Shown: positions 3,762 to 27,947 of the stretch, one piece after another | How positions within the stretch are numbered: position 1 is the stretch's first letter | How the letters are laid out: each line of letters starts with the position of its first letter | Source of the DNA: a virus | Strand: one strand, 5' to 3' | Length of the DNA stretch: 27,947 nt | IMG/VR virus record: IMGVR_UViG_3300025009_000327 | Coordinates: 1-27,947 of that record | Position numbers and translations under genes: made by a program | Notes under the pieces: model-generated | Seen by the model: the letters and a program-made list of their open reading frames with translations, nothing else | Database searches by the model: none | What the model was told of the DNA's origin: nothing

Positions 3762-3827
3762 GCGGCTTTTTGTCCCCCGGCGGTGTCTTATGCGGAAACC
3801 GTCCGCTTACGCAGTAGTTAGATGCTT

Positions 3828-4565
3828 ATGAAAATCCTTGATCTGTTCGCTGGCATTGGTGGCAATCAAAGACGCGCGTTTATAGAACAACGCGGGCATG
3901 AATACATCACGCTTGATTATGTGCCAGAATTTAACTGCACAATAACGGCTGATATTTTTGAAATGACAGCAGAGAAGTTCGGATATTTCGATTTTGTGTG
4001 GGCATCCCCGCCATGTGAAGCGTTTAGTGTTGCGGCAATGGGGCATCATTGGGGTGGTGGTGCGAGAGCGTATATTCCAAAAACGCCACACGCTGAATTG
4101 TCTCAAAGGTTGGTCAAGCATACCTTGCAAATTATCCGAGACATGAAACCTAAAGCCTTCATTATCGAAAATCCACGCGGAGTATTACGTAAGTTGCCAT
4201 TTATGAAAACTCTACCACGAACAACGATCACTTATTGCCAGTATGGTGATAAGAACATGAAGCCGACCGATCTTTGGGGATTTGTCCCTGGCTGGTCGCC
4301 TCGTCCGATTTGCAAGAATGGGCGCAAGTGTCACGAGTCCGCCCCGCGTGGGTCTCAAACAGGGGTACAGGGTTTATCTGGCGCGGCTGAACGCGCAGTA
4401 GTCCCGCTCGATCTGTGGTGCGAAATCCTTGACGCGCTTGAAGGCATTACCGCATCTAACACAGCGTCCACCCGACAAGTGGGATTCGCCCGCCAAAATT
4501 ATCTTATCCACCCTGAAGGTGATTCTATTCTTTGGGAAGATGCTACGCCCGCCACTTGCGGGTAA
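3828..4565 (+). CDS. DNA (cytosine-5) methyltransferase, cassette-borne
   Basis: It transfers a methyl group from S-adenosylmethionine to cytosine in DNA. From the ATG at 3828 the 245-residue product shows motif I DLFAGIGG (residues 5-12), motif IV PPCEAFS (61-67, catalytic Cys63) and motif VI as ENPRG (114-118). It is shorter than typical enzymes of the family (300-400 residues), as is common in phages. The ATG at 3822 lies inside the crossover site GTTAGAT; both starts lack a clear ribosome binding site. The last 37 or so residues are encoded by the attC element and are probably not part of the fold. The likely role is protection from host restriction. Target sequence unknown. Confidence 0.85.
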   Translation: MKILDLFAGIGGNQRRAFIEQRGHEYITLDYVPEFNCTITADIFEMTAEKFGYFDFVWASPPCEAFSVAAMGHHWGGGARAYIPKTPHAELSQRLVKHTLQIIRDMKPKAFIIENPRGVLRKLPFMKTLPRTTITYCQYGDKNMKPTDLWGFVPGWSPRPICKNGRKCHESAPRGSQTGVQGLSGAAERAVVPLDLWCEILDALEGITASNTASTRQVGFARQNYLIHPEGDSILWEDATPATCG

Positions 4566-4580
4566 CGCAAGCCGTTAGGC
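4454..4580 (+). repeat. attC-like site 1 (127 bases)
   Basis: R'' is ATCTAAC (4454-4460) and R' is GTTAGGC (4574-4580). Between them the arms pair well: GCGT (4464-4467) with ACGC (4565-4568), ACCCG (4470-4474) with CGGGT (4559-4563), and CAAGTGG (4476-4482) with CCACTTG (4552-4558). A4475 is left unpaired. An extrahelical base on one arm is the hallmark of attC sites folded as single strands for integron integrases. Confidence 0.75.
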
Positions 4581-4587
4581 AACCTCT

Positions 4588-5259
4588 ATGCGTATCTTAG
4601 TAGCGTGTGAATTCACGGGAACGATCAGGAGCGCTTTCGCGGCTCGGGGACATGATGCTTGGTCATGCGACTTCCGCGAGAGTGAAACACCTGGCAATCA
4701 CTATCAGGGTGATGTGCGAGACATCCTTTTTGAAAATTGGGATTTGCTCATTGCTCACCCGCCTTGCACTTATCTAAGTTACGCAGCTAACCACGTTTGG
4801 AACAAACCAGGTAGAGTTGAGCTACGAGAAGAAGCCATGAAGTTTTTTATGCTATTTGTGAATTGCAACATACCAATGGCGTGCATTGAAAATCCCGTAG
4901 GGTATCCAGGTAAAGTTTACAGGAAACCAGATCAGATAATTCACCCCTATTATTTTGGTGAGCGTCAATTAAAGCGTACATGCCTTTGGCTAAAGAACTT
5001 ACCTAAATTATGGTGGTGGAAAGAAGATGATTTATTTGGAAAGAAAACGATGACAGATTATCCAGAGCCAACCTATATTGATAATACACCAAGAGCCAAG
5101 AAGCGTTATTTTACAGAAGCTAATCATGGCGAAAAAAATCGCTCCATATCGTTTGATTCCATAGCAGGTGCAATGGCGCAGCAGTGGGGCTGCCTAACAC
5201 CGCGTGCACCAGACGGCAGGCAAGCTGCATCAGCAGAAAACGATGAATCTAATGATTGA
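4588..5259 (+). CDS. DNA cytosine methyltransferase-like phage protein, cassette-borne
   Basis: This 223-residue protein starts seven bases after the crossover site GTTAGGC. It has a Rossmann-like N-terminus (MRILVACEFTGTIRSAF), HPPCTYLS (57-64, Cys60 in the position of the catalytic Cys of cytosine-5 methyltransferases) and ENPVG (101-105) as motif VI. It lacks the usual DLFAG form of motif I. I know this family from many phages, where it is annotated as a methyltransferase-like protein; its exact reaction is less certain than for its neighbour. Residues from about 202 onward are encoded by the attC element. It has no paralogy to its neighbour beyond the shared motifs. Confidence 0.7.
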   Translation: MRILVACEFTGTIRSAFAARGHDAWSCDFRESETPGNHYQGDVRDILFENWDLLIAHPPCTYLSYAANHVWNKPGRVELREEAMKFFMLFVNCNIPMACIENPVGYPGKVYRKPDQIIHPYYFGERQLKRTCLWLKNLPKLWWWKEDDLFGKKTMTDYPEPTYIDNTPRAKKRYFTEANHGEKNRSISFDSIAGAMAQQWGCLTPRAPDGRQAASAENDESND

Positions 5260-5386
5260 TTGGCTGCTCAGACTATTATTCTTTCCGTTGTATTGGAGAT
5301 GCAAACATTGTAAAGAGGTCAATAGTAAGCATCTTGACCACTGTTTTTATTGCAGAAAGCCCCGCCAGTAACGCAAACCGTTGGGC
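5192..5386 (+). repeat. attC-like site 2 (195 bases, enlarged loop)
   Basis: R'' is GCCTAAC (5192-5198), complementary to the GTTAGGC that opens the same cassette. The left half continues as ACCGCGTGCACC. The right half is CCAGTAACGCAAACC followed by R' GTTGGGC (5380-5386). GCGT pairs with ACGC near the ends, but the inner arms pair less well than in site 1. The loop is unusually long because it holds a small ORF (5243-5371). Confidence 0.65.
5243..5371 (+). CDS. 42-residue zinc-ribbon protein encoded in an attC loop
   Basis: This short ORF lies inside attC-like site 2. The product has a hydrophobic N-terminus (IDWLLRLLFFPLYW, perhaps a membrane anchor) followed by CKHC and CFYC 10 residues apart, the spacing of a zinc ribbon. 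The stop is the TAA of the attC right half. The start could also be the ATG at 5252. There is no strong ribosome binding site. The clean Cys-x-x-Cys pairs argue that the ORF is real or is a remnant of a real domain. Function unknown. Confidence 0.5.
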   Translation: MNLMIDWLLRLLFFPLYWRCKHCKEVNSKHLDHCFYCRKPRQ

Positions 5387-5406
5387 GATTCGCCCGAGGA
5401 GGCAAA

Positions 5407-5568
5407 ATGTATCTTGATGAATTGATGAGTATTGTAGAAAAATTGCGTGTTGTGAAAATTGGAGACGAGAGAGCGCAAAACTATCTTGGCGCAGCCGTCA
5501 TCAACCTCGATATCCGTGCAATGGACATGGATGACATTCGTAATTCCCGCTACAAGAAGAGCCGCTAA
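5407..5568 (+). CDS. 53-residue hypothetical protein, cassette-like position
   Basis: The chosen ATG has GAGGAGG (5396-5402) upstream, one of the best binding sites in the region. The protein is small, helical and charged, ending in RYKKSR. It begins just after the R' GTTGGGC of attC-like site 2, and its stop is the TAA of a degenerate attC right half (GCTAACCGAGACCGTTGG, 5564-5581), so it occupies a cassette slot. Family not recognised. Confidence 0.55.
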   Translation: MYLDELMSIVEKLRVVKIGDERAQNYLGAAVINLDIRAMDMDDIRNSRYKKSR

Positions 5569-5583
5569 CCGAGACCGTTGGAA
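5561..5583 (+). repeat. Degenerate attC right half
   Basis: The sequence CCGCTAACCGAGACCGTTGG (5562-5581) differs at only a few positions from the attC right half CCGCTAACGCAAGCCGTTAG seen at 8528-8546. No RYYYAAC left half is visible upstream in this cassette. It looks like a decayed or truncated site at the right edge of array 1. Confidence 0.45.
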
Positions 5584-5594
5584 AGGATATAAGC

Positions 5595-5795
5595 ATGTTT
5601 ACGAAACTGTTGACCGCTATAAACTCGGAAGACAATCTGCCTGCAAAAGAACGCGAGACTTTTTTTGAAGCTGTCGCAAACGCATCAGAGAGTGAAATTG
5701 AGAATAACGTTGGGCGTAAGGCGAAAAATGCCATTATGCAGTGGTGGTATGACGTGTGTACTCTGCATCTGCATGAGACGGAACGCAACCAATGA
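5595..5795 (+). CDS. Small hypothetical protein
   Basis: This 66-residue acidic protein has GAAAGGA (5581-5587) upstream of its ATG. It is helical with a Trp-Trp-Tyr segment near the C-terminus (MQWWYDVC) and no predicted membrane segment. The stop overlaps the next start by ATGA (5792-5795), so it opens the coupled run of small membrane-protein genes. Family not recognised. Confidence 0.6.
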   Translation: MFTKLLTAINSEDNLPAKERETFFEAVANASESEIENNVGRKAKNAIMQWWYDVCTLHLHETERNQ

Positions 5796-6004
5796 TAGAC
5801 TCGTTCCTTCCATTTGGTATTTTGTTTTTTACTGCCACATTTATTTTATTAAAAGGCAGTTCGCGTTTTGCAGTATGGAAAATCAATCGGAGATCATCCC
5901 GCCGCGTAAGGCGCGAAATTGAACAGGCGTATCGTGCAGGCCGGGTTGAAAAGGTTGTGATTGACGAAGAAGATAACAGCATCAATTTCATCAGGTCAAA
6001 ATGA
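5792..6004 (+). CDS. Small single-pass membrane protein
   Basis: This 70-residue protein has one hydrophobic segment at residues 5-22 (FLPFGILFFTATFILL), then a basic stretch (WKINRRSSRRVRR) and an acidic C-terminus. The positive-inside rule suggests that the C-terminus faces the cytoplasm. It is coupled at both ends by ATGA overlaps (5792-5795 and 6001-6004). Function unknown. Confidence 0.6.
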   Translation: MIDSFLPFGILFFTATFILLKGSSRFAVWKINRRSSRRVRREIEQAYRAGRVEKVVIDEEDNSINFIRSK

Positions 6005-6204
6005 GTAATCCCGAGAACGCCTCCATTCTGTTTTTTGTATTCGGCCTCATCGCCGCTATCCTGATTTCGTTTCTGTGGCGGAAAGGCATCGTGCCACTGC
6101 CACCCATCTGGTTTCACTCGGACCACACTCCCGCTGAGCCGCACGAAACGCCGCCGATGCAGGACGACCCAGGCTATTATTTCAAGGATGTGAATGATGG
6201 ATAA
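6001..6204 (+). CDS. Small single-pass membrane protein
   Basis: This 67-residue protein has one transmembrane helix at about residues 8-25 (ILFFVFGLIAAILISFLW), then RKG, then a Pro-, His- and acid-rich tail (residues 30-67). There is no signal-peptidase site. It belongs to the run of small membrane-protein genes between 5.8 and 7.5 kb. Role unknown. Confidence 0.6.
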   Translation: MSNPENASILFFVFGLIAAILISFLWRKGIVPLPPIWFHSDHTPAEPHETPPMQDDPGYYFKDVNDG

Positions 6205-6310
6205 AAACAAGGTTACTCGCGTCAGAGAAATTCTACTTGTCGTTGTGCTCACAGTTCCGGGACTCCTGTTTTTGTTGTGGTGGGCGTGGAAGATTTTCAC
6301 GGAGGCGTAA
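6197..6310 (+). CDS. 37-residue single-pass membrane protein
   Basis: AAGGA (6184-6188) precedes two adjacent ATG codons (6194 and 6197) in one frame; I chose the second for spacing. The product has a basic N-terminus (MDKNKVTRVRE) and one hydrophobic helix (LLVVVLTVPGLLFLLWWAW). The stop is followed two bases later by the next gene's GTG. Its size, its binding site and its place in the run make it credible despite its length. Confidence 0.5.
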   Translation: MDKNKVTRVREILLVVVLTVPGLLFLLWWAWKIFTEA

Positions 6311-6311
6311 C

Positions 6312-6476
6312 GTGTCCAGGAACAGAATTGCAGGAATCATGCTCATCATTGCTTTCATCTTCGCGTGCGGTTCTTCCATTATCGTGGTTGCACAGTGGGT
6401 CGAGATTGGAGATGCGGCGTTACCAATCGTTGCCGCTGTGATTGTGTTCTTCCTGATTGTGTTGAGAAAAAGATAA
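6312..6476 (+). CDS. 54-residue two-pass membrane protein
   Basis: It starts with GTG at 6312, supported by GGAGG (6301-6305); the longer frame from 6237 overlaps the preceding gene and reads as out-of-frame noise. Two hydrophobic segments (IAGIMLIIAFIFACGSSIIVV and ALPIVAAVIVFFLIVL) flank a short acidic loop, and the protein ends in RKR. A holin-like function is conceivable, but the position among early genes argues against lysis. Confidence 0.5.
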   Translation: MSRNRIAGIMLIIAFIFACGSSIIVVAQWVEIGDAALPIVAAVIVFFLIVLRKR

Positions 6477-6727
6477 TGCCTGAGATTGTAGGCGATGATC
6501 TAATCCCCATCGACACGATCACCATTATCGGCGTCAACCGAATGTTGAAAAATGGGAACGTGATCTACGATAAAGAAACGCGCGACATGGGGATCGCCGC
6601 GTATGATTGCAAATATTACGAGCAGCCCGACGGCACACTCCGAGTCTATATCAATCGCTATCACGGTAATGTGTCGAAAGGGGAAGGGCCGATCATTCTG
6701 AGACGCGAACAAGTGAGAGACGTGTAA
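6476..6727 (+). CDS. Hypothetical soluble protein
   Basis: This 83-residue protein is coupled to its neighbours by one-base overlaps (TAATG at 6474-6478 and 6725-6729). It seems to be a small beta-rich domain (TITIIGVNRML, NVIYDKETR, TLRVYINRYHG, PIILRREQV) with no cysteine pair and no membrane segment. It is the only clearly soluble product within the run of membrane-protein genes. Family not recognised. Confidence 0.6.
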   Translation: MPEIVGDDLIPIDTITIIGVNRMLKNGNVIYDKETRDMGIAAYDCKYYEQPDGTLRVYINRYHGNVSKGEGPIILRREQVRDV

Positions 6728-7278
6728 TGTATGTCCAGCATTACTACTGGTTGTTTCCAAATGCAAGCCTGTTAGCAGGCGTCTATTTGGTTTACAACTT
6801 TGGCGGTAAGTGGTCTCCGTGGTTCAGTTACTCCATTTACTTTGGTTTCGGCTTTGTCGCTTGCTGTCATGCAATCTTTTTACTGCGAGCTGAGAAGTCA
6901 GACCTTGAATACACATCACACGCGCCAGAGGCTCCCAAGCGGCCCGCCCAACGCATCATGCCGCCAGTCCGCATCAATGGCGTCGTAAATCAAATGACGG
7001 TTGACCTTGTAAAATTCGACAAGGAACGCGGATTTGCGCGCACGCTAATTCAGATGCGGAGTGACTGGGGCTTGGACAAGGTTGATACGACTGAGGGTTT
7101 CTGGGTCAAGTCAGGGAAGTTTCCGCGCTCTGAGTTTGTAGAACTCAAGAACAAGTGGAGGCACTACGGCGCGTTGTTCCGCAAATCCGAACACGCAAAC
7201 TCTCCCGATACGGTAGGGGACTGGAAACTTGTGCGTAAGATTGCCAATGGAAATCCTTTACCGCCTATCCCCCACTGA
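6727..7278 (+). CDS. Membrane-anchored hypothetical protein
   Basis: This 183-residue protein has two hydrophobic segments in the first 55 residues (about 7-24 and 33-54), then a basic Pro-rich linker (APKRPAQR) and a soluble domain of about 110 residues. That domain is rich in Trp, Lys and Arg and includes GFARTLIQMRSDWGLDKVDTT and an FPRSEFVELKNKW helix. It looks like a membrane-tethered cytoplasmic domain. I do not recognise it. Confidence 0.6.
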   Translation: MYVQHYYWLFPNASLLAGVYLVYNFGGKWSPWFSYSIYFGFGFVACCHAIFLLRAEKSDLEYTSHAPEAPKRPAQRIMPPVRINGVVNQMTVDLVKFDKERGFARTLIQMRSDWGLDKVDTTEGFWVKSGKFPRSEFVELKNKWRHYGALFRKSEHANSPDTVGDWKLVRKIANGNPLPPIPH

Positions 7279-7371
7279 CATATTATTTACACGCCTGGAA
7301 TGCAGATTTACCCGTAAAGCGAAAAAGCGAAGTGAAGTGAAGTGACAAGTGAGTGAAAAAGTGAGACAAAA

Positions 7372-7494
7372 ATGGATGACAGTATCACTCGTGGTTGGGA
7401 GTTATGCGCACAGGTCGCATGGGTTGTGGCCGGGATCGCGTGCGCCCTGGCGTACATCGCCTGGCGCGACCTACGCAAGCCGCCGAAGAAGTGA
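7372..7494 (+). CDS. 40-residue single-pass membrane protein
   Basis: The product MDDSITRGWELCAQ begins acidic and is followed by one hydrophobic helix (VAWVVAGIACALAYIAW) and a basic end (RDLRKPPKK). The ribosome binding site is weak. The 93 bases before it have no gene and hold only a low-complexity run of three GAAGT units (7329-7345). It is credible because it fits the pattern of the preceding small membrane proteins, but less certain than those. Confidence 0.4.
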   Translation: MDDSITRGWELCAQVAWVVAGIACALAYIAWRDLRKPPKK

Positions 7495-7595
7495 AACGGG
7501 CGTTTTGGGGTCGCACAACCAGAATTACAATGCCCGTCACCGCCCGTGACACCTGCGTGAGCTACTAAAAAACATATACGGAAAGCCGCCACCAA

Positions 7596-7928
7596 ATGAA
7601 ACCGTCTAAAGCCAAAATCAGGAAAGCAAAGTCACAGCTGCGCCGCCTGCATAAGGTCGTGAAATCCTACCGCGTCATCGCTCGTGACTACTACGGCGGA
7701 GAGATAAAGTTTGGAACTCTCCAGCGTTTTGTGGATGATGCAAACTACGTTCCACAAGACGAAAAGATATTGAACGCACTGGGTTTGATAACTCCGCCCA
7801 ACCCCTACCGAATTTTGCCGCGCTGGTTTCATCGAATTCCGGAAGCACTGAAATACTTCAACGATAAGAGAGAACAGATAAAACTAATGTCAAAGAACAC
7901 ACGCCCAAACAGAACGGAGACGAAATGA
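7596..7928 (+). CDS. Putative small HTH regulator
   Basis: This 110-residue basic protein has a segment (residues 27-64) with the look of the single-helix-turn-helix found in small phage regulators: VIARDYYGGEIKFGTLQRF, then DEKILNALGL, an ending often seen in such proteins. It ends in a Lys/Arg-rich tail. The ribosome binding site is weak. The stop overlaps the next gene by ATGA (7925-7928). Confidence 0.55.
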   Translation: MKPSKAKIRKAKSQLRRLHKVVKSYRVIARDYYGGEIKFGTLQRFVDDANYVPQDEKILNALGLITPPNPYRILPRWFHRIPEALKYFNDKREQIKLMSKNTRPNRTETK

Positions 7929-8236
7929 AAAAAGACGAGGCTGTAACAGTCCCGATAAAACCATGGTGGGAGGGTGATCAGCGCGTCGAAAAGTTTATGG
8001 CGCCAGTACGTGATGCCATCGCACGGCATCTTCCGTGGCCGAGCGCGGAATTTACAGACATATACAATCGCGCCTACGAGGCGGTTTACAATGCAATCAA
8101 AGAAGCAGAGGCCGCCCATCCCAGCGCGCGGCAGCCGGTTTGTGCCGATTGTGGTGCGGAGTATGCTTTGATCGGCACAGATGCCGTTACGTGTGCGATA
8201 TGCGGATCAACCCGCCGCAAGGCGCGTGAAAAATAA
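7925..8236 (+). CDS. Zinc-ribbon-containing hypothetical protein
   Basis: This 103-residue protein has GGAGACGAA upstream of its ATG. The first 70 residues are helical, and the last 35 hold a zinc ribbon with CADC and CAIC about 17 residues apart, ending with a basic tail (STRRKAREK). It lies just upstream of the first junction of cassette array 2, and its stop is 20 bases before the attC-like right half at 8250. Function unknown. Confidence 0.6.
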   Translation: MKKDEAVTVPIKPWWEGDQRVEKFMAPVRDAIARHLPWPSAEFTDIYNRAYEAVYNAIKEAEAAHPSARQPVCADCGAEYALIGTDAVTCAICGSTRRKAREK

Positions 8237-8249
8237 ACTTATAAGGCTT

Positions 8250-8274
8250 GCGCCAGTAACGCAAACCGTTAGAA
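8250..8274 (+). repeat. attC-like right half at the left edge of array 2
   Basis: The sequence CCAGTAACGCAAACC followed by GTTAGAA is the same as the right half of attC-like site 2 (5366-5386) up to the variable R' bases. No RYYYAAC left half is clear upstream; GCCCATCCCAGCGCGCGGCA (8116-8135) could be a decayed one, but it lies inside the coding region of the previous gene. Confidence 0.5.
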
Positions 8275-8281
8275 GGCATCT

Positions 8282-8533
8282 ATGTCAGATTACAGAAATT
8301 ACTCAAAGGTTTTGTCAGTATCTTATGGTGATAGCTATGGTCGCATGTTGAAACTTGAATGTGGTCATGAAGTGTATCGCTATTGCAAAGTTGCCCCCAA
8401 GAAGGTGAAATGCGAGAGATGCCTTCTAACACCGCGTGCAGCCGACGGGGCTTGCACCCACGTAAACAGTGCGGCTTTCAAGATGGACGAACATGGCAAT
8501 TTATATTGCTCTATCTGTTCGCCCTGCCGCTAA
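8282..8533 (+). CDS. Cassette ORF, 83 residues, Cys-rich C-terminus
   Basis: The ORF begins seven bases after the crossover site. It has Cys and His residues (ECGHEVYRYCKV, KCERC) and a second set in the attC-encoded part (CTHV near residue 58, CSICSPC near 77). The first set (ECGH and CERC) could itself form one zinc site. The frame runs through the attC site and stops at the TAA of its right half, so the native fold may end near residue 50. No clear ribosome binding site is visible. Confidence 0.55.
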   Translation: MSDYRNYSKVLSVSYGDSYGRMLKLECGHEVYRYCKVAPKKVKCERCLLTPRAADGACTHVNSAAFKMDEHGNLYCSICSPCR

Positions 8534-8548
8534 CGCAAGCCGTTAGTC
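8424..8548 (+). repeat. attC-like site 3 (125 bases)
   Basis: R'' is TTCTAAC (8424-8430), then ACCGCGTGCAGCCGAC. The right half is CCGCTAACGCAAGCC with R' GTTAGTC (8542-8548). Fourteen bases ending in R'' (8417-8430) are complementary to the left junction of the cassette at 8268-8281. GCGT pairs with ACGC; the inner arms pair only partly. Confidence 0.7.
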
Positions 8549-8573
8549 GTTTTCTTGCGAAAGGAGAAACGTG

Positions 8574-8792
8574 ATGAACGTAGGTCAATTGAAAAAGATG
8601 TTGGAACAATATCCTGATGATATGGAAATCCTGAATGGTCGCTATAGCGATTATGAAATTATTTCAGAAGATGAATGGCATGTTGTTCAGGGAGTCGAAA
8701 ACGAAGGTGGCTGGATAATGCGCTCACATCCAACCATGAGTGAAGAAAATAAGCGCAAGGAAAAGTCTTATTTGTATCTTGAAGGAAATTAG
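8574..8792 (+). CDS. Cassette ORF, 72-residue hypothetical protein
   Basis: The start ATG follows AAAGGAG (8560-8566), so this cassette gene has its own translation signal. The opening MNVGQLKKMLEQYPDDMEI is a pattern I know from small conserved phage and bacterial proteins of unknown function (often MTVGELIELLSQYDPDTPV and similar). The rest is acidic and probably folds as a small alpha/beta domain. The stop lies four bases before R'' of attC-like site 4, so here the gene and the site do not overlap. Confidence 0.65.
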   Translation: MNVGQLKKMLEQYPDDMEILNGRYSDYEIISEDEWHVVQGVENEGGWIMRSHPTMSEENKRKEKSYLYLEGN

Positions 8793-8795
8793 CAC

Positions 8796-8901
8796 GCCTA
8801 ACAATGCGTGCAGCGGATGATGGGTATGCTCTCCGTTTGCAGGCATTTATCTAGTCTGAAAGTTTATCCCGCCCACTCGCGGGTAATACAAGCCGTTAGG
8901 T
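8796..8901 (+). repeat. attC-like site 4 (106 bases)
   Basis: R'' is GCCTAAC (8796-8802), then AATGCGTGCAGCGGA. The right half is CGCGGGTAATACAAGCC with R' GTTAGGT (8895-8901). A small local hairpin (CCCGC and GCGGG, 8868-8883) sits at the base of the right half. The R'' of this cassette matches its left junction GTTAGTC at fewer positions than in the first unit, which suggests mutation or exchange. Confidence 0.7.
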
Positions 8902-8931
8902 GGCTTCGTGGCTGTCCGAAAGAAAGGCAAA

Positions 8932-9159
8932 ATGAGCGTTATATATTTAGATAGTTTTGACACCGTGTCTGATTTGCGCGGCAAGAGGCGCACGTATAAA
9001 AATATCAAAGCGGCAGTTTTAGCGGCTGGTAGATTTTCATGCTTCGATATTGAAACAGGGAAAGATGGCAGAATATTTACAAAACTATGCCACAATGATC
9101 CAGAGATTGAAACTTTTTATATGAGTTATCCGTGGATAGGAGTACGCCGCCACGGGTAA
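8932..9159 (+). CDS. Cassette ORF, 75-residue hypothetical protein
   Basis: The start at 8932 has AGAAAGG upstream; the in-frame GTG at 8908 lies too close to the crossover site to have a binding site. The product begins MSVIYLDSFDTVSDLRG and has a central helical segment (KNIKAAVLAAGRFSCF). It ends GVRRHG within a truncated attC right half, whose TAA is its stop codon. Family not recognised. Confidence 0.55.
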   Translation: MSVIYLDSFDTVSDLRGKRRTYKNIKAAVLAAGRFSCFDIETGKDGRIFTKLCHNDPEIETFYMSYPWIGVRRHG

Positions 9160-9174
9160 CACAAGCCGTTCTAT
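9144..9174 (+). repeat. Truncated attC-like site 5 (right half only)
   Basis: The sequence GCCACGGGTAACACAAGCC followed by GTTCTAT (9168-9174) is a clear right half, nearly the same as those of sites 1 and 4. No RYYYAAC plus GCGTGCA left half is present in the preceding 200 bases. R' is GTTCTAT, which does not match GTTRRRY. Confidence 0.5.
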
Positions 9175-9200
9175 GGTAGATAAAGAAAGGAAAGTGTATT

Positions 9201-9491
9201 ATGGCAATTGTTGAAAACGCAGAGTTGAAACTCACCCTAACTGTCTACGCCGACGAGATTGAAGACATCGCCGCGTTGGTGCGTGATGCTGCGAAAGAAA
9301 TAAAGCGTGGCTCACTGGCTGGAAATGTCGGCGGCTGTCTCGGTTTCTATCAATACGAAGTTGAGGAGCAAGGCCGCGCCGCCCAACACCGCGTGCAGCG
9401 GACTTTGCTGGTATGCACCTGCGAAAAGTTCGAGCCGGCGAATGAGGTTAGTAAATTGTGTCGGCACTGCGGGCTACCGCAAAGCCAGTAA
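9201..9491 (+). CDS. Cassette ORF, 96 residues, zinc-ribbon end
   Basis: AAAGGA lies ahead of the ATG at 9201. The first 60 residues make an alpha/beta domain (AELKLTLTVYADEIEDIAALV, then AAKEIKRGSL). The last 35 residues are encoded by the attC site and contain CTC and CRHC about 16 residues apart, which looks like another zinc ribbon. The stop is the TAA of the attC right half. Whether the C-terminal part is a functional domain or read-through of the site cannot be told from sequence. Confidence 0.55.
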   Translation: MAIVENAELKLTLTVYADEIEDIAALVRDAAKEIKRGSLAGNVGGCLGFYQYEVEEQGRAAQHRVQRTLLVCTCEKFEPANEVSKLCRHCGLPQSQ

Positions 9492-9506
9492 CGCAAGCCG
9501 TTGTGC
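9381..9506 (+). repeat. attC-like site 6 (126 bases)
   Basis: R'' is GCCCAAC (9381-9387), then ACCGCGTGCAGCGGAC. The right half is CCAGTAACGCAAGCC with R' GTTGTGC (9500-9506). CTTTGC (9403-9408) pairs with GCAAAG (9479-9484) and GG (9400-9401) with CC (9485-9486), leaving A9402 unpaired; GCGT (9391-9394) pairs with ACGC (9491-9494). It is the last site of array 2. Confidence 0.7.
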
Positions 9507-13040: not shown

Positions 13041-13790
13041 CTACGCGGGACTATAAATCAAATAGGGTGACGGGAGCGGCTTGCTCATATCCACCTTCGC
13101 CAAGTGTGCCAACGGTATCTTGATTGTTTCACGCGCCACAAGTGGAATCCACACGTCCGCGCCATCACCCTGCGGAAAACGTGATAGCGTGGTTTCGTTC
13201 ACCACGTTTAACGCGCAAAACTTATGCCAGATTGCAACGTCCTCTACGGCGGGCGGTGCGGCGTTTCCGTCCAGCATGGAAACAATCAGGACGTTGTTTG
13301 CGACCAGCGCACGCATGGAGGCGCGGAAATTTCGAGCCAGCACAGTCCGCCTTACCGTCTTTATCAATGTCAGTGCATCCTTCAATGCTTGTAAAACGCT
13401 GTAGCCTTCTGTGCCTGTTACTACCGCACCGCCGCACACGCGCGACTTGTCGTATTTGAGCTTTCCTGTCGCGGTCAGATCAAGCCTGTTCACGTAATCG
13501 GGCTTTGCAGTTCCGCCCGGATAGTCAAAGCCACTGTCAAAATTATTGAAGGCTGTTTTATACCCCATCAGCCTCCGCCATTTGATTGGCGTCATATCTG
13601 GATTGAGCGCCTTCGTAAATAGCTGCCATTCCTCATTGAGCGGAATTGCCACACCTCCGACAGGGTAGACTTCTGGAACACTCCACCGCCACAACGGGCC
13701 GCGCTCCGCGTCATGGAGTACGCGATAAAGTTGCACGGCGGGAGGCGGTTCGGCCACCTGCCACCTGAGCGTCGATTGAACCGTGTACAT
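13041..13790 (-). CDS. Hypothetical tail-region protein
   Basis: This 249-residue protein starts at an ATG whose last base overlaps the stop of the endolysin gene. It is a mixed alpha/beta protein with an N-terminal beta domain (TLRWQVAEPPPAVQLYRV) and a helical middle (ALKDALTLIKTVRRTVL). No enzyme motif is visible. It lies between the endolysin and the long fibre; a virion component or an accessory of the fibre is likely. Family not recognised. Confidence 0.55.
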   Translation of the reverse strand: MYTVQSTLRWQVAEPPPAVQLYRVLHDAERGPLWRWSVPEVYPVGGVAIPLNEEWQLFTKALNPDMTPIKWRRLMGYKTAFNNFDSGFDYPGGTAKPDYVNRLDLTATGKLKYDKSRVCGGAVVTGTEGYSVLQALKDALTLIKTVRRTVLARNFRASMRALVANNVLIVSMLDGNAAPPAVEDVAIWHKFCALNVVNETTLSRFPQGDGADVWIPLVARETIKIPLAHLAKVDMSKPLPSPYLIYSPA

Positions 13791-14947
13791 TATAGTTGCT
13801 TCGTCAAAACGAAATGCGCTTCGCCGGTCCAGCGCGCGCCGTCTGGATCGATCATGGTTTTCTGTTCGATGAATTCGCGCGTCTCGGCAGGGGGCGGAGG
13901 CGGAGGAGGTGGTTCATCAACTGCAACCCACTCCCACGCGATATAAGCCTGGCTCACTCCTGAACTAGCCCAACGCGTATCGGTGATGGCGACGCCGTTC
14001 ACCTTTGATAATTTGAGCCATTGATTATAGGCTTCACTGGCTTCAATGATGTCGCCCGGAACAAGAAACTTCGGGTCCGTAGAAACCTGATTATAGGTAT
14101 TGGACGGCCCGATCCGAACATGCACGGTTCCCTTTACCGTGCCTTGAATAACTTGCATGTTGCCTCCTGTTGGCGGGGGAGTTGTGCCGCCGCTGTATCG
14201 TGCATCGAAATCGGCCTGTGAGCCGTTGAAATAGTTCATGTCCAATTCGGCGCTCTCTACGCCCCACTCGTGCCCAACCGCGGGAGTTCCGAACTGCCAT
14301 AAAAGCAGATTGGACCACGGAGCAGGAATTAGGACATTCGCTGGATTGCTCGTATACCACGCTTCCCATAGCGGATGCGCTTTCAAATAATTGTACTGGC
14401 TTGCGTTTGTGACTGCGTTGGAATGGTCGCGGAACCAGTAATAGCCTGTGTACATTCCAATCCTGCAATTGGGCAAGCCGCGTTCCATCGCTTCCATAAA
14501 CGCAACCACGTTTTTTAGTCCGCTATATGGCCCGCCGTAGGAGTTCTCCCAATCCGCCCACAATTCCATCTCGGGCGGGTCGTTCTGCAACATGCTAAGC
14601 CACAAAGCCGCCTGTGTTCCAGGCGATGCGCGGTCATCATAAAACCAGTATGTCGCGCGCTTCATTCCTACCCGTTTAGCCTCTGCCCAATTGCGATCAA
14701 ATTGAACATCCTTCCAAACGTTCTGGCCGGCCCGAATGACTACCGCGTCTGTCTTTGTCCGCATAAGATCGTGATTGGGCCTGCCTTGCCAGAAGGAATA
14801 ATCCGGGATCTCTTTTAGTGTAGCGATAACAGCACTCAGAGAAACGACAAAGCGCCGGCCTCTCGGGTTGAGCGCGCGGTTAAGGATGGACCTTAGATTA
14901 TTTTTGGGAACGTATAAACCCGCGCGTAATCCAATGTGTTCGTTCAT
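13790..14947 (-). CDS. Endolysin: GH25 muramidase with SH3-like domain
   Basis: This 385-residue enzyme cleaves the beta-1,4 bond between N-acetylmuramic acid and N-acetylglucosamine in the cell wall. The GH25 domain spans about 44-252: PDYSFWQG (Asp49), AVVIRAGQNVWKD, ELWADWEN (Asp132 and Glu134, the catalytic pair position), MYTGYYW, LLLWQFG and LDMNYFNG. An SH3-like wall-binding domain follows (about 264-335, HVRIGPSNTYNQV), then a proline run near 349-356 and a C-terminal tail of unknown role. Two membrane-protein genes lie directly upstream, so this forms a lysis unit. It overlaps the 146-residue gene by ATGA (14944-14947). Confidence 0.85.
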   Translation of the reverse strand: MNEHIGLRAGLYVPKNNLRSILNRALNPRGRRFVVSLSAVIATLKEIPDYSFWQGRPNHDLMRTKTDAVVIRAGQNVWKDVQFDRNWAEAKRVGMKRATYWFYDDRASPGTQAALWLSMLQNDPPEMELWADWENSYGGPYSGLKNVVAFMEAMERGLPNCRIGMYTGYYWFRDHSNAVTNASQYNYLKAHPLWEAWYTSNPANVLIPAPWSNLLLWQFGTPAVGHEWGVESAELDMNYFNGSQADFDARYSGGTTPPPTGGNMQVIQGTVKGTVHVRIGPSNTYNQVSTDPKFLVPGDIIEASEAYNQWLKLSKVNGVAITDTRWASSGVSQAYIAWEWVAVDEPPPPPPPPAETREFIEQKTMIDPDGARWTGEAHFVLTKQL

Positions 14948-16836: not shown

Positions 16837-19092
16837 CTACGGTGCGGCGCGCCCCACGGGAGTGCCGTGAATTGAACCGACGACCTTGAAAACATTGTCG
16901 AATACTTTTTGTGATGTGGTCAGAGTTTGATCTACGAAGTCCGCTAAATCCTCATCGCGCACCGCAAAGCCCTGGAACCTCAACCCGTCAGTCAGGAGTG
17001 TTTCGTCAGGAGTGCCGCCATTGTATAATGTAGTTACTTCCGATTGCGGGGTGATACGTCCATAAATGCGCGGGTCGGCAATTTTCCCGTCAAACGATGT
17101 GTCGTAATCGCTGGCGCTGGAGTGGGTGTTCCCGATAACAAACTCCAATCCGGCCTCGTCTTCCCGCGCACCCACCGGTGTATTGGTTTCCGTCAACGTT
17201 TGGGATGTTCCGTTGATGTAAATAACGGGGTCGGCTGTTGGGTCTGTAGATGTGTCGTGAGTAACAACTATATGTGTCCAGCCTCCAAGTGGTACAGAAT
17301 TATCAGGGGTTTTCCAAATCCCATTAATGCCAGCGGGAGTCGCAGTCTGATAATACTGGATATAGCGCGGAGATTTGACGCTGATAAGAACGTAAACCCC
17401 ATAGCCTATAATATTGTCTATTGATCCGGTAGCATCCGCGTCCATGTACACCCACACAGAAAAACTCCGTGTTTGTAAATTAGAAATATATGGCACGTAC
17501 CCAAAATTGACGGCGTCTGGCGCGCTTCCTCCCGCAAACTCAATCGCCAGTGGCGAAAAACCTGCAATCAGAGACAGTGCAATTGCCACGTGCCATGTCA
17601 CTGTGATTATTTTGCCAGCCATGGTAACCTCAATTCCCTGGATGTAAAAATTGTTCGCGAATCCAATTTCTGGTATCACAATATACCGCAGATCCCCGAC
17701 CTCTGTGTACAGAAACGCCATCATTGCAGAGGGGGATTTATTGGCTGTAAATGTAATAGAATTCTGAACCGTGCGCGGCTCTTTATGCTCCTCGACCTGA
17801 CTGTCCACGAACACAGACCCCGAACCAAGATCGTTTTTATATTTCTGATGCAGTGTCTCACTATTGGCTTCAAACTCCGTGATGGACGCGCCGTTTGTCG
17901 CGACATGCTCAATTGAATTGGGTATTCGTATCGCCGTTGCCCGAGGATCGAATGTGCGAACAAACATCGTCGCGGCGTTGCTGTTGTATAGGTCAACAGA
18001 AAAGCCATCTGTGCCCGGTGCCCAGTTATTGAGTGTCAGACTCGAGGTGATGTTAGACCCGCCGCCGCCTGTTGCCGTGAACGCAGAACAATCAGTACCC
18101 GTTGCAGGGTCCGGTTCTATCCAATCCTGTGCGTTGATCGGCAGGCCTCCAACAGGGTCTGCCCAATATCCTTTTAGAGGGTATGTTTGCCCTGAGGCGA
18201 TAATAATTTCTTCGTCCAACTCAAATAAAACCTCAGGTGACGCGCCGAGTCTGCGTGGGTAAGCCACTACCGTCATCCGATTAATCTGATGATCGCCAGA
18301 GGGCGCTTCATAATCTTTGATGACCGAGCCGTCGAATGTCATTGCGGCAAGTTCGTCATTTGCCACAAATTCCCCATCTTCGTTTATCGCTAGTTCCCCA
18401 TCTTCGTTTATCGCCAGGTTGCTATCATCTATGGCAAGTGGAAATGTTCCCGCTGTTCTCCAACCGTGCCGACTGTCCGCGCTCTCGAAGCGGAGCGTGC
18501 CGTCATGTTTTAGATAGACGTGACCGAGTTCGGAATAAGCGACTTTTACCATCTCCTTGTAAACCGTTGTCTTTGATGTGTTCGTGTCAAACGCAGTTGG
18601 GAATGTTTCGCGGCCCGTATCGAAATCTGTCCCGCCTGGAGGCGCTATCCCAATCAGATTTGTCGCGGTAGTCAATACTTCGTCGCCGCGTTGATTGGCC
18701 TGAACACCAGGATTGACAATCGGGGTGCGCTCTGCGTAATCGAGCCAGTCCACGCAGTAGGCATAGGCTAATTTGTCTTTGTTGCTTGGACGCGCGTCCA
18801 CGTCATCCAGATAATAGAGATACTCGTAATCGTTGCTTTCAAACGTGATGACTATCTTTATCGGTATGCCCTTGCGCCACCCCGAAAGCATACTCGGCCC
18901 GCCGATGGTATACAAACCTGTTGCGTTGTTCAGGGGCAGTCGTAAATCTGCGGTATCCGCGATACGATCCATCGGCCCATTGCCCGATATTCCCCAAAAC
19001 AAATTAGCACCCGCTGCGCCACATGCGTCATCCAGTTCCACCCAGGCGGCGGAGATATAACCGTAAAACTTTATGGTTGCATTGGCCTGCAT
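16837..19092 (-). CDS. Large tail protein with C-terminal LamG/concanavalin-like domain
   Basis: This 751-residue protein directly follows the tape measure gene, the usual site of distal-tail, hub and receptor-binding proteins. The N-terminal 500 residues show mixed beta structure typical of a tail hub. The last 220 or so residues are a LamG-like jelly roll: FSVWVYMDAD, GWTHIVVTHDTSTD, VIYINGTSQT and FDGKIADPRIYGR, which commonly binds sugars. A short 8-residue repeat (LAINEDGE twice) reflects a 24-base tandem duplication at 18370-18417. The start overlaps the tape measure stop by one base. Confidence 0.65.
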   Translation of the reverse strand: MQANATIKFYGYISAAWVELDDACGAAGANLFWGISGNGPMDRIADTADLRLPLNNATGLYTIGGPSMLSGWRKGIPIKIVITFESNDYEYLYYLDDVDARPSNKDKLAYAYCVDWLDYAERTPIVNPGVQANQRGDEVLTTATNLIGIAPPGGTDFDTGRETFPTAFDTNTSKTTVYKEMVKVAYSELGHVYLKHDGTLRFESADSRHGWRTAGTFPLAIDDSNLAINEDGELAINEDGEFVANDELAAMTFDGSVIKDYEAPSGDHQINRMTVVAYPRRLGASPEVLFELDEEIIIASGQTYPLKGYWADPVGGLPINAQDWIEPDPATGTDCSAFTATGGGGSNITSSLTLNNWAPGTDGFSVDLYNSNAATMFVRTFDPRATAIRIPNSIEHVATNGASITEFEANSETLHQKYKNDLGSGSVFVDSQVEEHKEPRTVQNSITFTANKSPSAMMAFLYTEVGDLRYIVIPEIGFANNFYIQGIEVTMAGKIITVTWHVAIALSLIAGFSPLAIEFAGGSAPDAVNFGYVPYISNLQTRSFSVWVYMDADATGSIDNIIGYGVYVLISVKSPRYIQYYQTATPAGINGIWKTPDNSVPLGGWTHIVVTHDTSTDPTADPVIYINGTSQTLTETNTPVGAREDEAGLEFVIGNTHSSASDYDTSFDGKIADPRIYGRITPQSEVTTLYNGGTPDETLLTDGLRFQGFAVRDEDLADFVDQTLTTSQKVFDNVFKVVGSIHGTPVGRAAP
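18370..18417 (-). repeat. 24-base tandem duplication in tail gene
   Basis: Two copies of a 24-base unit (18370-18393 and 18394-18417) differ at one base and encode LAINEDGE twice in frame. This is a small recent slippage product within the large tail protein gene. Confidence 0.85.
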
Positions 19093-20771
19093 TATCCCGC
19101 CTTACTCAATGCACGGCTAAAGGCCTTTTCCATCGCCCGCCCCATCTGCCTATAATCCATGATTCCAGATAGATCATTATTCGGCGTTATATTTCCGTTC
19201 GTTTGCGGGGTCATTACCTCTGGCCCGCGCTCACCAACGAGATAGGGAGTTCCGGCCATCACTGGCCCGCCTGCCGCACGCGAGCCGCCCAAATAACCGG
19301 GCTGCTGTGTGTAGCTACCCGCCCCGTAGACGCTATTGTAGTAACTCGTGATCGTGGTGCTTACGTTTGTCGGGATTGAGTTGTATTTTGCGACGAGTGC
19401 GTCCGCTTCCTGCTGGATGCGTATCATGTCGTCTACCGCCTGCTGGGTGTAGACGCCCCACGCTAGACCCTGCTCCAATAGCCCCTGCTGCTCCTCTGTG
19501 GTCAGGCCGTCGATTGACAGCATTTCCTCCGCACGCGCAAGAATACGCCTGCGGGTGGCAAGTTCAAATTCTAGCGCGTTGTCCATTTGCGCCTGTTCAT
19601 TCTCTGCAAGTTTTTTATTTATGTCCTGTACTGCTTCACTCTCAGGCCAATAACCCTGCGCGATAAGTTCTTGCTTTTTAGCCAAGAGTTCTGCATGGGT
19701 GGTCTGTAAGTCGCGTTCCTTGTCCTGGAACGCGTCGAGGGCATTGGTCAATTCGCCAATCTCTCGCAAGTAATCCTGATTGGCCTTCGTCATATCCTTT
19801 ATAGCCTGTTCTGCGATGCGCGTTTCTTCGGCTATTCGTTTTGTTGCTTCCGCCTCGTCCTCAAATGTACCGGTTGCCAATGCTGATTCCTGGGTCGCTA
19901 ATCGTTTTGCGTCTGCGACCTCACGTTCGGCCCGGGCCAGGTCAATATATTGAACCAGCATGGCGGACCCAACGGGAAGGTAGCCCTTTCCGTCTTTCGT
20001 TGCCAATTCTTGCGCGCGTATTAGGTCCATCTGATGATTAATGACGCCAGTCATGGCATCAACTAATGGGGGCGCAACGCTATACGTGTATGCATCCCAC
20101 GAATCGTTGAGGTTATCTTGTGCGAATTTCAGTCTCAACGACCGTCGATAAGCCTCTTCTGTAAAAATTAGATTTTCCTCTACCGCGGCGCTCATCTCGC
20201 GAATGGAATCACTCCCCTTTTCGAGCAACTTCCCCATATCCTCACCGGATTTACCAAAACGGTCTAACAGGAATTGAGTACGTTCCACGCCTGGAGCGAG
20301 AGAGTTATATTCATCGGCCAGCGCCGCGAGGCCTTCAATGTTCGGCTGAAATCCGTCCTTCTGCGCCAGCTTCATCGAGGTACGAAGTGTGTCTACACTG
20401 ATACCCACGTCATCAGCGACTTCCCGTAAGCGACTGGCTTCCTCGACTGTCGTGCCAAGCGACCGGGCCATGTTTCCCGCCTCAATAGCATTATCAACGT
20501 ATTTCTGTCCGACCTCATCCCAAACCGCCTGCCCTACCCGCACTACATCTAAAACGGTCTGATACATGGACCTAAAATCAGTCCACGACATAGTAGATTT
20601 CTGAGTGGTCCTTTCCTGTTCTTTGAGAACTTGATTTAATGCAGTTGTGCTAATGCCCAAGCCGTGAGACGCGTCCTTAATCGTGTCCATCTTGACTTGG
20701 ACTTCTTGCGCCTTTTTTATGAAGTCGGCGTTATTCAACTGCGCGTCAAGTTCTATTCGTGGATTTGGCAT
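19092..20771 (-). CDS. Tape measure protein
   Basis: This 559-residue protein sets tail length by scaffolding the tail tube. It is mostly helical, with Lys/Glu-rich coiled coil between about 300 and 430 (IAEQAIKDMTKANQDYLREI, DKERDLQTTHAELLAKK), and a conserved early part (SLGTTVEEASRLREVADDVG, FLLDRFGKSGEDMGKLL). The C-terminus bears the usual tape-measure signature GGPVMAGTPYLVGERGPEV (near 511-529). At about 1.5 angstroms per residue the tail would be near 84 nm, which fits a siphovirus. It is translated after the tail assembly chaperones; its start overlaps the end of the frameshift product by 19 bases. Confidence 0.85.
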   Translation of the reverse strand: MPNPRIELDAQLNNADFIKKAQEVQVKMDTIKDASHGLGISTTALNQVLKEQERTTQKSTMSWTDFRSMYQTVLDVVRVGQAVWDEVGQKYVDNAIEAGNMARSLGTTVEEASRLREVADDVGISVDTLRTSMKLAQKDGFQPNIEGLAALADEYNSLAPGVERTQFLLDRFGKSGEDMGKLLEKGSDSIREMSAAVEENLIFTEEAYRRSLRLKFAQDNLNDSWDAYTYSVAPPLVDAMTGVINHQMDLIRAQELATKDGKGYLPVGSAMLVQYIDLARAEREVADAKRLATQESALATGTFEDEAEATKRIAEETRIAEQAIKDMTKANQDYLREIGELTNALDAFQDKERDLQTTHAELLAKKQELIAQGYWPESEAVQDINKKLAENEQAQMDNALEFELATRRRILARAEEMLSIDGLTTEEQQGLLEQGLAWGVYTQQAVDDMIRIQQEADALVAKYNSIPTNVSTTITSYYNSVYGAGSYTQQPGYLGGSRAAGGPVMAGTPYLVGERGPEVMTPQTNGNITPNNDLSGIMDYRQMGRAMEKAFSRALSKAG

Positions 20772-26821: not shown

Positions 26822-27947
26822 TTATGCCGAAGCCGACCCAAGCACGACAAAGGGCGAACGGTTGTTTGAACCTTTGTAGGGCGTGAGCGCCGAAGCAAGC
26901 GCGGTCTGACCGTCTGCGCGGTAAATGAAGCGGATAACTTCCTGATCGGTCAGGAATTCAACGTGCATGGAGGTTGCCATTTCCACGTTGCCCTTTTCCC
27001 ACAGAAGATACTCGTTCAGGTCTGCGAGCAGAATATCGCCGCTTGTATTGAGCGACGGATTGAACTCGGTTTCGATGATCGGGCGACCGTACAATGTGCG
27101 GACCCCATCGCGGTAACTCGCATAGGGATACAGGACGGAGGTCGAGCCGACTGCAAACAGACTGTCAAGCTGCGCAGAACAATCAGGATTGATGTAAAAA
27201 TTCGCGCGCGCCTTCGAGCGCAGAGAGAGCCGCATCCACATATTGGAGATGTCATCGCCTTTGATCGTGGAGGCGGTATTGCGCGCCACGGAAATCAGCG
27301 CGCCGGATTGCATGATACCCTGCGGGCCAGCCACGCCCAAGCCGTTCAGAATGTCGTCGTTGAGCATGAAGCCAATTTCTTCCCGGCTCCCTTGCTCCAC
27401 GATCGCGGCAAACTGTGCGGCATCCCTCAAAAGCTCGTTGGTGTCATATACGAGCACACCATACTTTTTGAGTTCCCACTGAATGCGCCTGAATTTCGGC
27501 TTGCTCTTCGTAACCGTTTCGCCCTCTGCCAGGCGATAACCACGCAGGCCGCCCCAGCGTGAGCCGGTTTCGCGACTGGTTTCGTCTACGCCGTTGATCC
27601 ATCCAGAATTGCTGTTATTGGAAACGGGGAGTTTTCGCACGGCGTTGGCGAATGGTCCTTCTTCATGGATTGGTTTGATGACCTCGGCGGTCAGGGTCGG
27701 CTCAAGCAAAATACCGCCGTCCGTGGGCACGCCTTCGGATGCGCCTTGCACGGCTTTGGCTTCCATTGCCTGCAAGCGTTTGATGCGGGGGTCCACCGTG
27801 CGACCGAGAGAGGTGTAATAGTTCTTGACGGCGATGGCTTGTTCTGCCAGTGTCTTAAACGGGCGGTCGGCCTCATCGGTCGTGACCGGGATAACTCCAG
27901 CGGAATTGACAGGTTCGGTCGCTTCAATGGCTTTCTTCGAGCCAGCC
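26822..27947 (-). CDS. Major capsid protein, HK97-type (partial, N-terminus off the right edge)
   Basis: The frame is open from the stop at 26822 to the right edge, about 374 residues so far, so the GTG at 27796 is not the real start. The visible part has features of the HK97 fold. A charged helical N-arm (FKTLAEQAIAVKNYYTSL) is followed by GGILLEPTLTAEVIKPI (near the start of the mature capsid domain). The E-loop/spine region follows (KKYGVLVYDTNELLRDA, EQGSREEIGFMLNDDILNG), then NFYINPDCSAQLDSLF and LYGRPIIETEFNPSL, and a P-domain end FIYRADGQTALASAL. The gene is the most upstream late gene in the window. Confidence 0.85.
   Translation of the reverse strand, partial: AGSKKAIEATEPVNSAGVIPVTTDEADRPFKTLAEQAIAVKNYYTSLGRTVDPRIKRLQAMEAKAVQGASEGVPTDGGILLEPTLTAEVIKPIHEEGPFANAVRKLPVSNNSNSGWINGVDETSRETGSRWGGLRGYRLAEGETVTKSKPKFRRIQWELKKYGVLVYDTNELLRDAAQFAAIVEQGSREEIGFMLNDDILNGLGVAGPQGIMQSGALISVARNTASTIKGDDISNMWMRLSLRSKARANFYINPDCSAQLDSLFAVGSTSVLYPYASYRDGVRTLYGRPIIETEFNPSLNTSGDILLADLNEYLLWEKGNVEMATSMHVEFLTDQEVIRFIYRADGQTALASALTPYKGSNNRSPFVVLGSASA

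Follow-up and report, generated by a model that had tools for sequence, protein, structure and literature searches.

R'' complementarity to own cassette starts in a phage-borne attC cluster

The DNA analysed here, called the window, is the virus contig IMGVR_UViG_3300025009_000327 over its whole length of 27,947 bases (positions 1 to 27,947). It is a tailed-phage contig bearing a CALIN, which is an attC cluster without an integrase, at about 3.8–9.5 kb. The cassettes were very probably inserted as circles by the IntI of a host, probably a Chloroflexota bacterium, and the partner of an R'' is the start of its own cassette. The insertion by a host IntI, the existence of the circle and the identity of the host are what we infer.

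The crossover falls between G and TT of GTTRRRY (PMC3518468), and a cassette is assigned the attC that its circular form displays (PMC2674596). An integron integrase of the host, probably one of the Chloroflexota, would have put each cassette in place as a circle. With the crossover behind the first G of R', the bases of R' that follow this G come from the next cassette, and R'' in the array adjoins a borrowed R'. Its partner is the stretch of the first 9–10 bases of its own cassette, which adjoins R'' only in the circle.

The end match is known, textbook integron biology, a consequence of the G/TTRRRY crossover and no new property. The array adds a member to a known kind, the phage CALINs described in 2023. 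The part deserving a further look is the reading of open frames through attC.

The attC array and its viral contig

The contig is shown to be viral by a phage major head protein at 26822–27796 on the minus strand. A tape measure protein (19092–20771) and an endolysin (13790–14947) are encoded on the same contig as the array, and so is a NinG/Rap-type endonuclease. Searching the whole window with the TIGR02249 profile of the integron integrase gave no match at E ≤ 1, on a contig that may be a fragment. The window thus has no intI and is not a complete integron with intI and attI. An Rfam search of the window gave no match either.

Between 4452 and 9506 the array has five attC sites that run from R'' to R', plus two half sites of L'-R', all on the plus strand and in one orientation. 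It is a CALIN by the definition, which asks for at least two attC sites made up of R'' (RYYYAAC), L'', L' and R' (GTTRRRY). The cassettes lie between phage genes. All features given below are on the plus strand.

The left junction of cassette 1 is at 3817–3825, with the G at 3817 and the cassette start TTAGATGC at 3818. Upstream of 3817 is phage sequence without a recognisable R'' or L'', and the left edge has no recognisable attI. Gene cassette 1 (3818–4574) has an open reading frame (ORF) at 3822–4565 whose stop is the TAA of L'. It encodes a C-5 cytosine DNA methylase (Pfam PF00145, E 7e-10; phrog_757). Its attC 1 (4452–4580) consists of R'' GCATCTAAC at 4452–4460, L' TAACGCAAGCC at 4563–4573 and R' GTTAGGC at 4574–4580.

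Gene cassette 2 (4575–5380) has an ORF at 4588–5259 that is methyltransferase-like (phrog_757). Within the loop of its long attC 2 (5192–5386) lies a small, separate ORF that bears two CxxC motifs and stops at the L' TAA. The cassettes other than these two methyltransferase cassettes have small unknown ORFs. From 5380 to 8268 (2.9 kb), the ORFs look like ordinary phage ones, as if phage genes sat inside the array.

A half site of L'-R' at 8257–8274, with no R'' found upstream, marks the cassette start GTTAGAAGGCATC. The following gene cassette (8269–8542) has a Cys-rich ORF at 8282–8533 that stops at the TAA of L', and ends in attC 3 (8424–8548; R'' TTCTAAC, R' GTTAGTC). The next one (8543–8895) has an ORF at 8571–8792 and ends in attC 4 (8796–8901; R'' GCCTAAC, R' GTTAGGT). 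The second half site (9157–9174), for which no R'' was found, supplies the TAA to an ORF at 8908–9159. Since both half sites are without R'', a part of the array has decayed. The last gene cassette (9169–9500) has an ORF at 9201–9491 with a zinc-ribbon-like tail encoded within attC 5 (9381–9506; R'' GCCCAAC, R' GTTGTGC), the right end of the array.

Phage attC clusters without an integrase were described by Qi et al. 2023 (PMC9892861), in which 5 of the 6 phage attC sites tested were recombined by IntI1. The present arrays are like those phage CALINs in having no integrase, a single cassette orientation and DNA methyltransferase cargo. They differ in that the attC sites are of Chloroflexota type, the phages are metagenomic and the ORFs often run through attC. 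Many Chloroflexota-type phage arrays are hereby added to the few phage CALINs described.

Relatives, host and entry of the cassettes

Compared by sequence, the relatives in two loci show the cassettes as units. In locus L069, a relative with 74% identity to cassette 1 has the start GTTAGGTGC and the R'' GCACCTAAC, so that relative to cassette 1 the sixth base is altered at both ends together, some 640 bases apart. To its left is a full L'-R', where the window has unrelated phage sequence. A 73% relative of cassette 2 (locus L167) stands first in its own array. Its similarity to the window opens exactly at GTTAGGCAACC, preceded by unrelated attC-free sequence, and its R'' GGTTGCCTAAC is complementary to its own start over 11 nt.

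There are also relatives without attC, one of cassette 1 (L070) and three of cassette 2 (L166, L168 and L174). Those of cassette 2 end near the point where R'' begins in the cassette. The plain methyltransferase relative of cassette 1 (L070:4331–5029) has a tail, QNYLxHPxGDSIxW, shared with 4452–4580 of the window, where it is inside the attC loop. The two tails differ mostly at third codon positions, as judged by eye. We considered this locus as the birth of a cassette and dropped the idea, as other phage homologues lack the C-terminal tail altogether. It may descend from a cassette by loss of the attC, or be a precursor.

One alternative is that ordinary homologous or illegitimate recombination copied the array from a host integron into the phage, rather than IntI building it up cassette by cassette. 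Such routes are raised for phage CALINs by Qi et al. 2023 (PMC9892861), and the left edge at 3817 with no recognisable attI is in line with them. However, the first cassette in L167 has its left edge exactly at the crossover base. No cassette-1 homologue was found in 33 of the attC-bearing bacterial genomes, in a search run without a positive control. Moreover, attG sites are a reported point of entry of cassettes into genomes (Loot et al. 2024, as cited in PMC12901181), and such entry would suit a left edge without attI. Copying of the array is hence the less favoured and on balance unlikely route, and insertion of cassettes as circles is preferred.

The host is probably a Chloroflexota bacterium, as judged only from the attC type. 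The attC core GSTAACGCAAGCCGTTRG is present in 78 genome stretches, mostly of Chloroflexota and mainly of Anaerolineae. IntI scores above the curated cut-off in 20 of the 31 tested genomes sharing the attC type, and full intI is found in 2 of the 44 attC-bearing viral contigs. The integrase is likely to be supplied by the host as its IntI.

Three viral attC arrays, L031 (G039), L021 (G030) and L010 (G019), come with a full or truncated integron integrase, and in the first two a portal protein is also present. The Chloroflexota-type attC core occurs in two variants, in 45 and 90 viral stretches, many of them with multiple sites. Phage CALINs with this attC type look common.

The relatives of the capsid are mostly short fragments, and only 3 of the 23 records searched have the L'-R' core. 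For the NinG-like left neighbour, no relatives were found in the viral contigs or in ten named records. The relatives of the right-flank gene (L189–L191) have no attC of the window type.

The partner of R''

The preliminary description had GTTAGATGC (3817–3825) as the exact reverse complement of GCATCTAAC (4452–4460), and both the letters and the coordinates are exact. It also had the local R' GTTAGGC as unmatched. The own start reads GTTAGATGC followed by TTATG and the complement of R'' reads GTTAGATGC followed by GGTAA, so 9 nt agree, versus 5 for the local R' GTTAGGCAA.

Ends of about 10 nt in inverted repeat could also belong to a transposon with terminal inverted repeats or to some other inverted-repeat element. 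But the array has no transposase, the right end runs on into the L''-loop-L'-R' hairpin as in attC, and the same G/TT left edge recurs among cassettes with different neighbours. Such an element is highly improbable, and cassette ends remain the preferred reading.

That two 9-mers are complementary by accident is scarcely credible and is refuted by the tables below: although the window has 109 exact inverted pairs of 9 nt no more than 700 nt apart, near the number expected by chance (87 ± 11 in Markov simulations), the attC anatomy presets the compared positions, and 280 other cassettes obey the rule with z = 18–25. The preliminary description had chance excluded, which the 9-nt match alone does not achieve and the added tables over many cassettes do. 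Similar complementarity does occur elsewhere in the window, as those 109 pairs attest, yet the attC anatomy fixes where to look. The match is unusual because this anatomy sets beforehand which two places to compare, and only 2 of the 195 other cassette starts match the cassette-1 R'' over at least 9 nt.

Five cassettes of the window are readable at both ends. The own start is the better partner in three of them (9 versus 5, 8 versus 3 and 14 versus 5), including the cassette at 8269–8542, whose own R'' is complementary to its own start over 14 nt. The local R' is slightly better in the other two (5 versus 6 and 3 versus 4). The own-start rule is not universal in the window but is overwhelming across the related arrays.

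For the first set, viral and genome contigs were searched for the L'-R' core GSTAACGCAAGCCGTTRG, which gave 85 viral and 110 bacterial cassettes. The attC sites were called by one scored rule and each R'' was compared with the own and the next cassette starts. In the viral cassettes, the agreement of own R'' with own start is 0.80–0.95 at positions 4–9 and falls to 0.61 and then 0.29 at positions 10 and 11. The bacterial values are 0.90–0.96, 0.77 and 0.39, respectively. In both, the agreement is down to background by position 11, so the partner rule spans about 10 nt, past the 7-nt core.

The next cassette's start agrees with R'' only at the level of shuffled partners. Against these, z is 18 (viral) and 25 (bacterial) for the own start and −0.9 and −0.6 for the next start. 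Where the own and next starts differ, the own start is better in 70 of 80 viral and 94 of 105 bacterial cassettes, and the next start in 7 and 5. About 9–15% of the cassettes outside the window break the own-start rule. A second set, obtained with the separate pattern GCAAACC, gave the same result in 85 further viral cassettes. The first set had too few homologous pairs of cassettes, at too great a distance, for a covariation statistic.

The preliminary description had proposed tabulating R'' against cassette start and local R', and the table of 85, 110 and 85 cassettes strongly favours the own start. It had also named the absence of the pattern from related arrays as fatal, and the pattern is present there in both viral and bacterial ones. 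The pairing of R'' with its own start, with the crossover after the first G of R', that it had put forward agrees with these tables and with the published rule.

The predicted folds of the bottom strand point the same way. The fold with the own start is the more stable one in 66 viral and 99 bacterial cassettes, and that with the next start in 14 and 10. For cassette 1, the predicted energy is −26.0 kcal/mol with the own start, as in the circular form, and −20.4 kcal/mol with the next start. Both R and L arms are predicted to pair in the circular form, giving the attC bottom-strand hairpin of R''/R' and L''/L' pairing, while the R arm is unpaired in the array form.

The class 1 cassettes (aadA2, aadB and blaVIM-2) likewise have R'' complementary to their own start over 9–12 nt and the crossover at G/TTRRRY (PMC3518468). 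They differ in attC sequences and in that the fetched arrays are on plasmids with attI1 (intI1 annotated in 3 of 6). As a control, the own-start match is 12 nt for aadA2, 12 for aadB, 11 for VIM-2, 9 for aadA22 and 9 for one qacG2, and the next-start match is 3–6 nt. Most of the resolved class 1 cassettes fit the rule, with several sites that disagreed or were left unresolved by the crude gene-based finder. The Chloroflexota chromosomal integrons (Anaerolineae MAGs), many of which have intI, share the L'-R' core and the own-start rule with the phage arrays.

The phage array thus retains the signature of cassettes moved as circles. Therefore, its cassettes look recombinable and not merely degenerate. 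The partner table is a ready test for the genuineness of an attC array.

Open reading frames through attC

Many viral cassettes seem to be translated straight through the recombination site. An ORF was counted as through-reading if its start codon is more than 60 nt upstream of R'' and it crosses R'', L'' and the loop to the L' TAA. In the viral cassettes, the L' frame is open in this way at 60 of 98 sites and the other two frames at 5 and 11. An independent viral set gave 60 of 115, versus 6 and 13; the two sets cover the viral loci L002–L070 and L198–L261. Where the contig encodes a portal or head protein, the count is 27 of 43, versus 1 and 8.

The bacterial arrays show no such excess, with 18 of 152 in the L' frame versus 9 and 17, and in this the Chloroflexota chromosomal integrons differ from the phage arrays. 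A few loop families prevail in the bacterial set and may make the contrast less strong. In the window, four ORFs end at the L' TAA (3822–4565, 8282–8533, 8908–9159 and 9201–9491). The next start codon after the L' TAA comes at a median of 39 nt.

According to the review (PMC8876359) of the work by Jacquier et al., ribosomes are impeded by attC hairpins, and a short ORF inside attC can lift the block. Therefore, through-translation could sustain expression of the array. As that review presents them, the short attC ORFs are alike in that translation across attC opens the hairpin and aids the next cassette. They are unlike in that the main ORF of the viral cassettes itself crosses attC and ends at the L' TAA.

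We lean towards a reading in which the phage attC doubles as a coding sequence. The ORF would end at the L' TAA, and its translation would melt the mRNA hairpin and couple the cassettes in an operon-like manner. A minority of the loops would supply a zinc-ribbon-like C-terminus, and R'' and the cassette start would be shaped by both codons and circle pairing. Such coding use of attC by viral arrays and not by bacterial ones would be without precedent in the literature surveyed. No open-access paper joining integron, attC and zinc ribbon was found, and this absence speaks only weakly for novelty.

CxC or CxxC motifs occur in the L' frame of 28 of 114 viral loops, versus 2 in each of the other frames and 2 of 155 bacterial loops. 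The second viral set shows this more weakly (17 versus 7 and 2). Diverse Cys-rich, zinc-ribbon-like C-terminal tails are seen in the L' frame of three loops of the window (5196–5380, 8428–8542 and 9385–9500). ORFs with such attC-encoded tails number 22 in the first set and 16 in the second.
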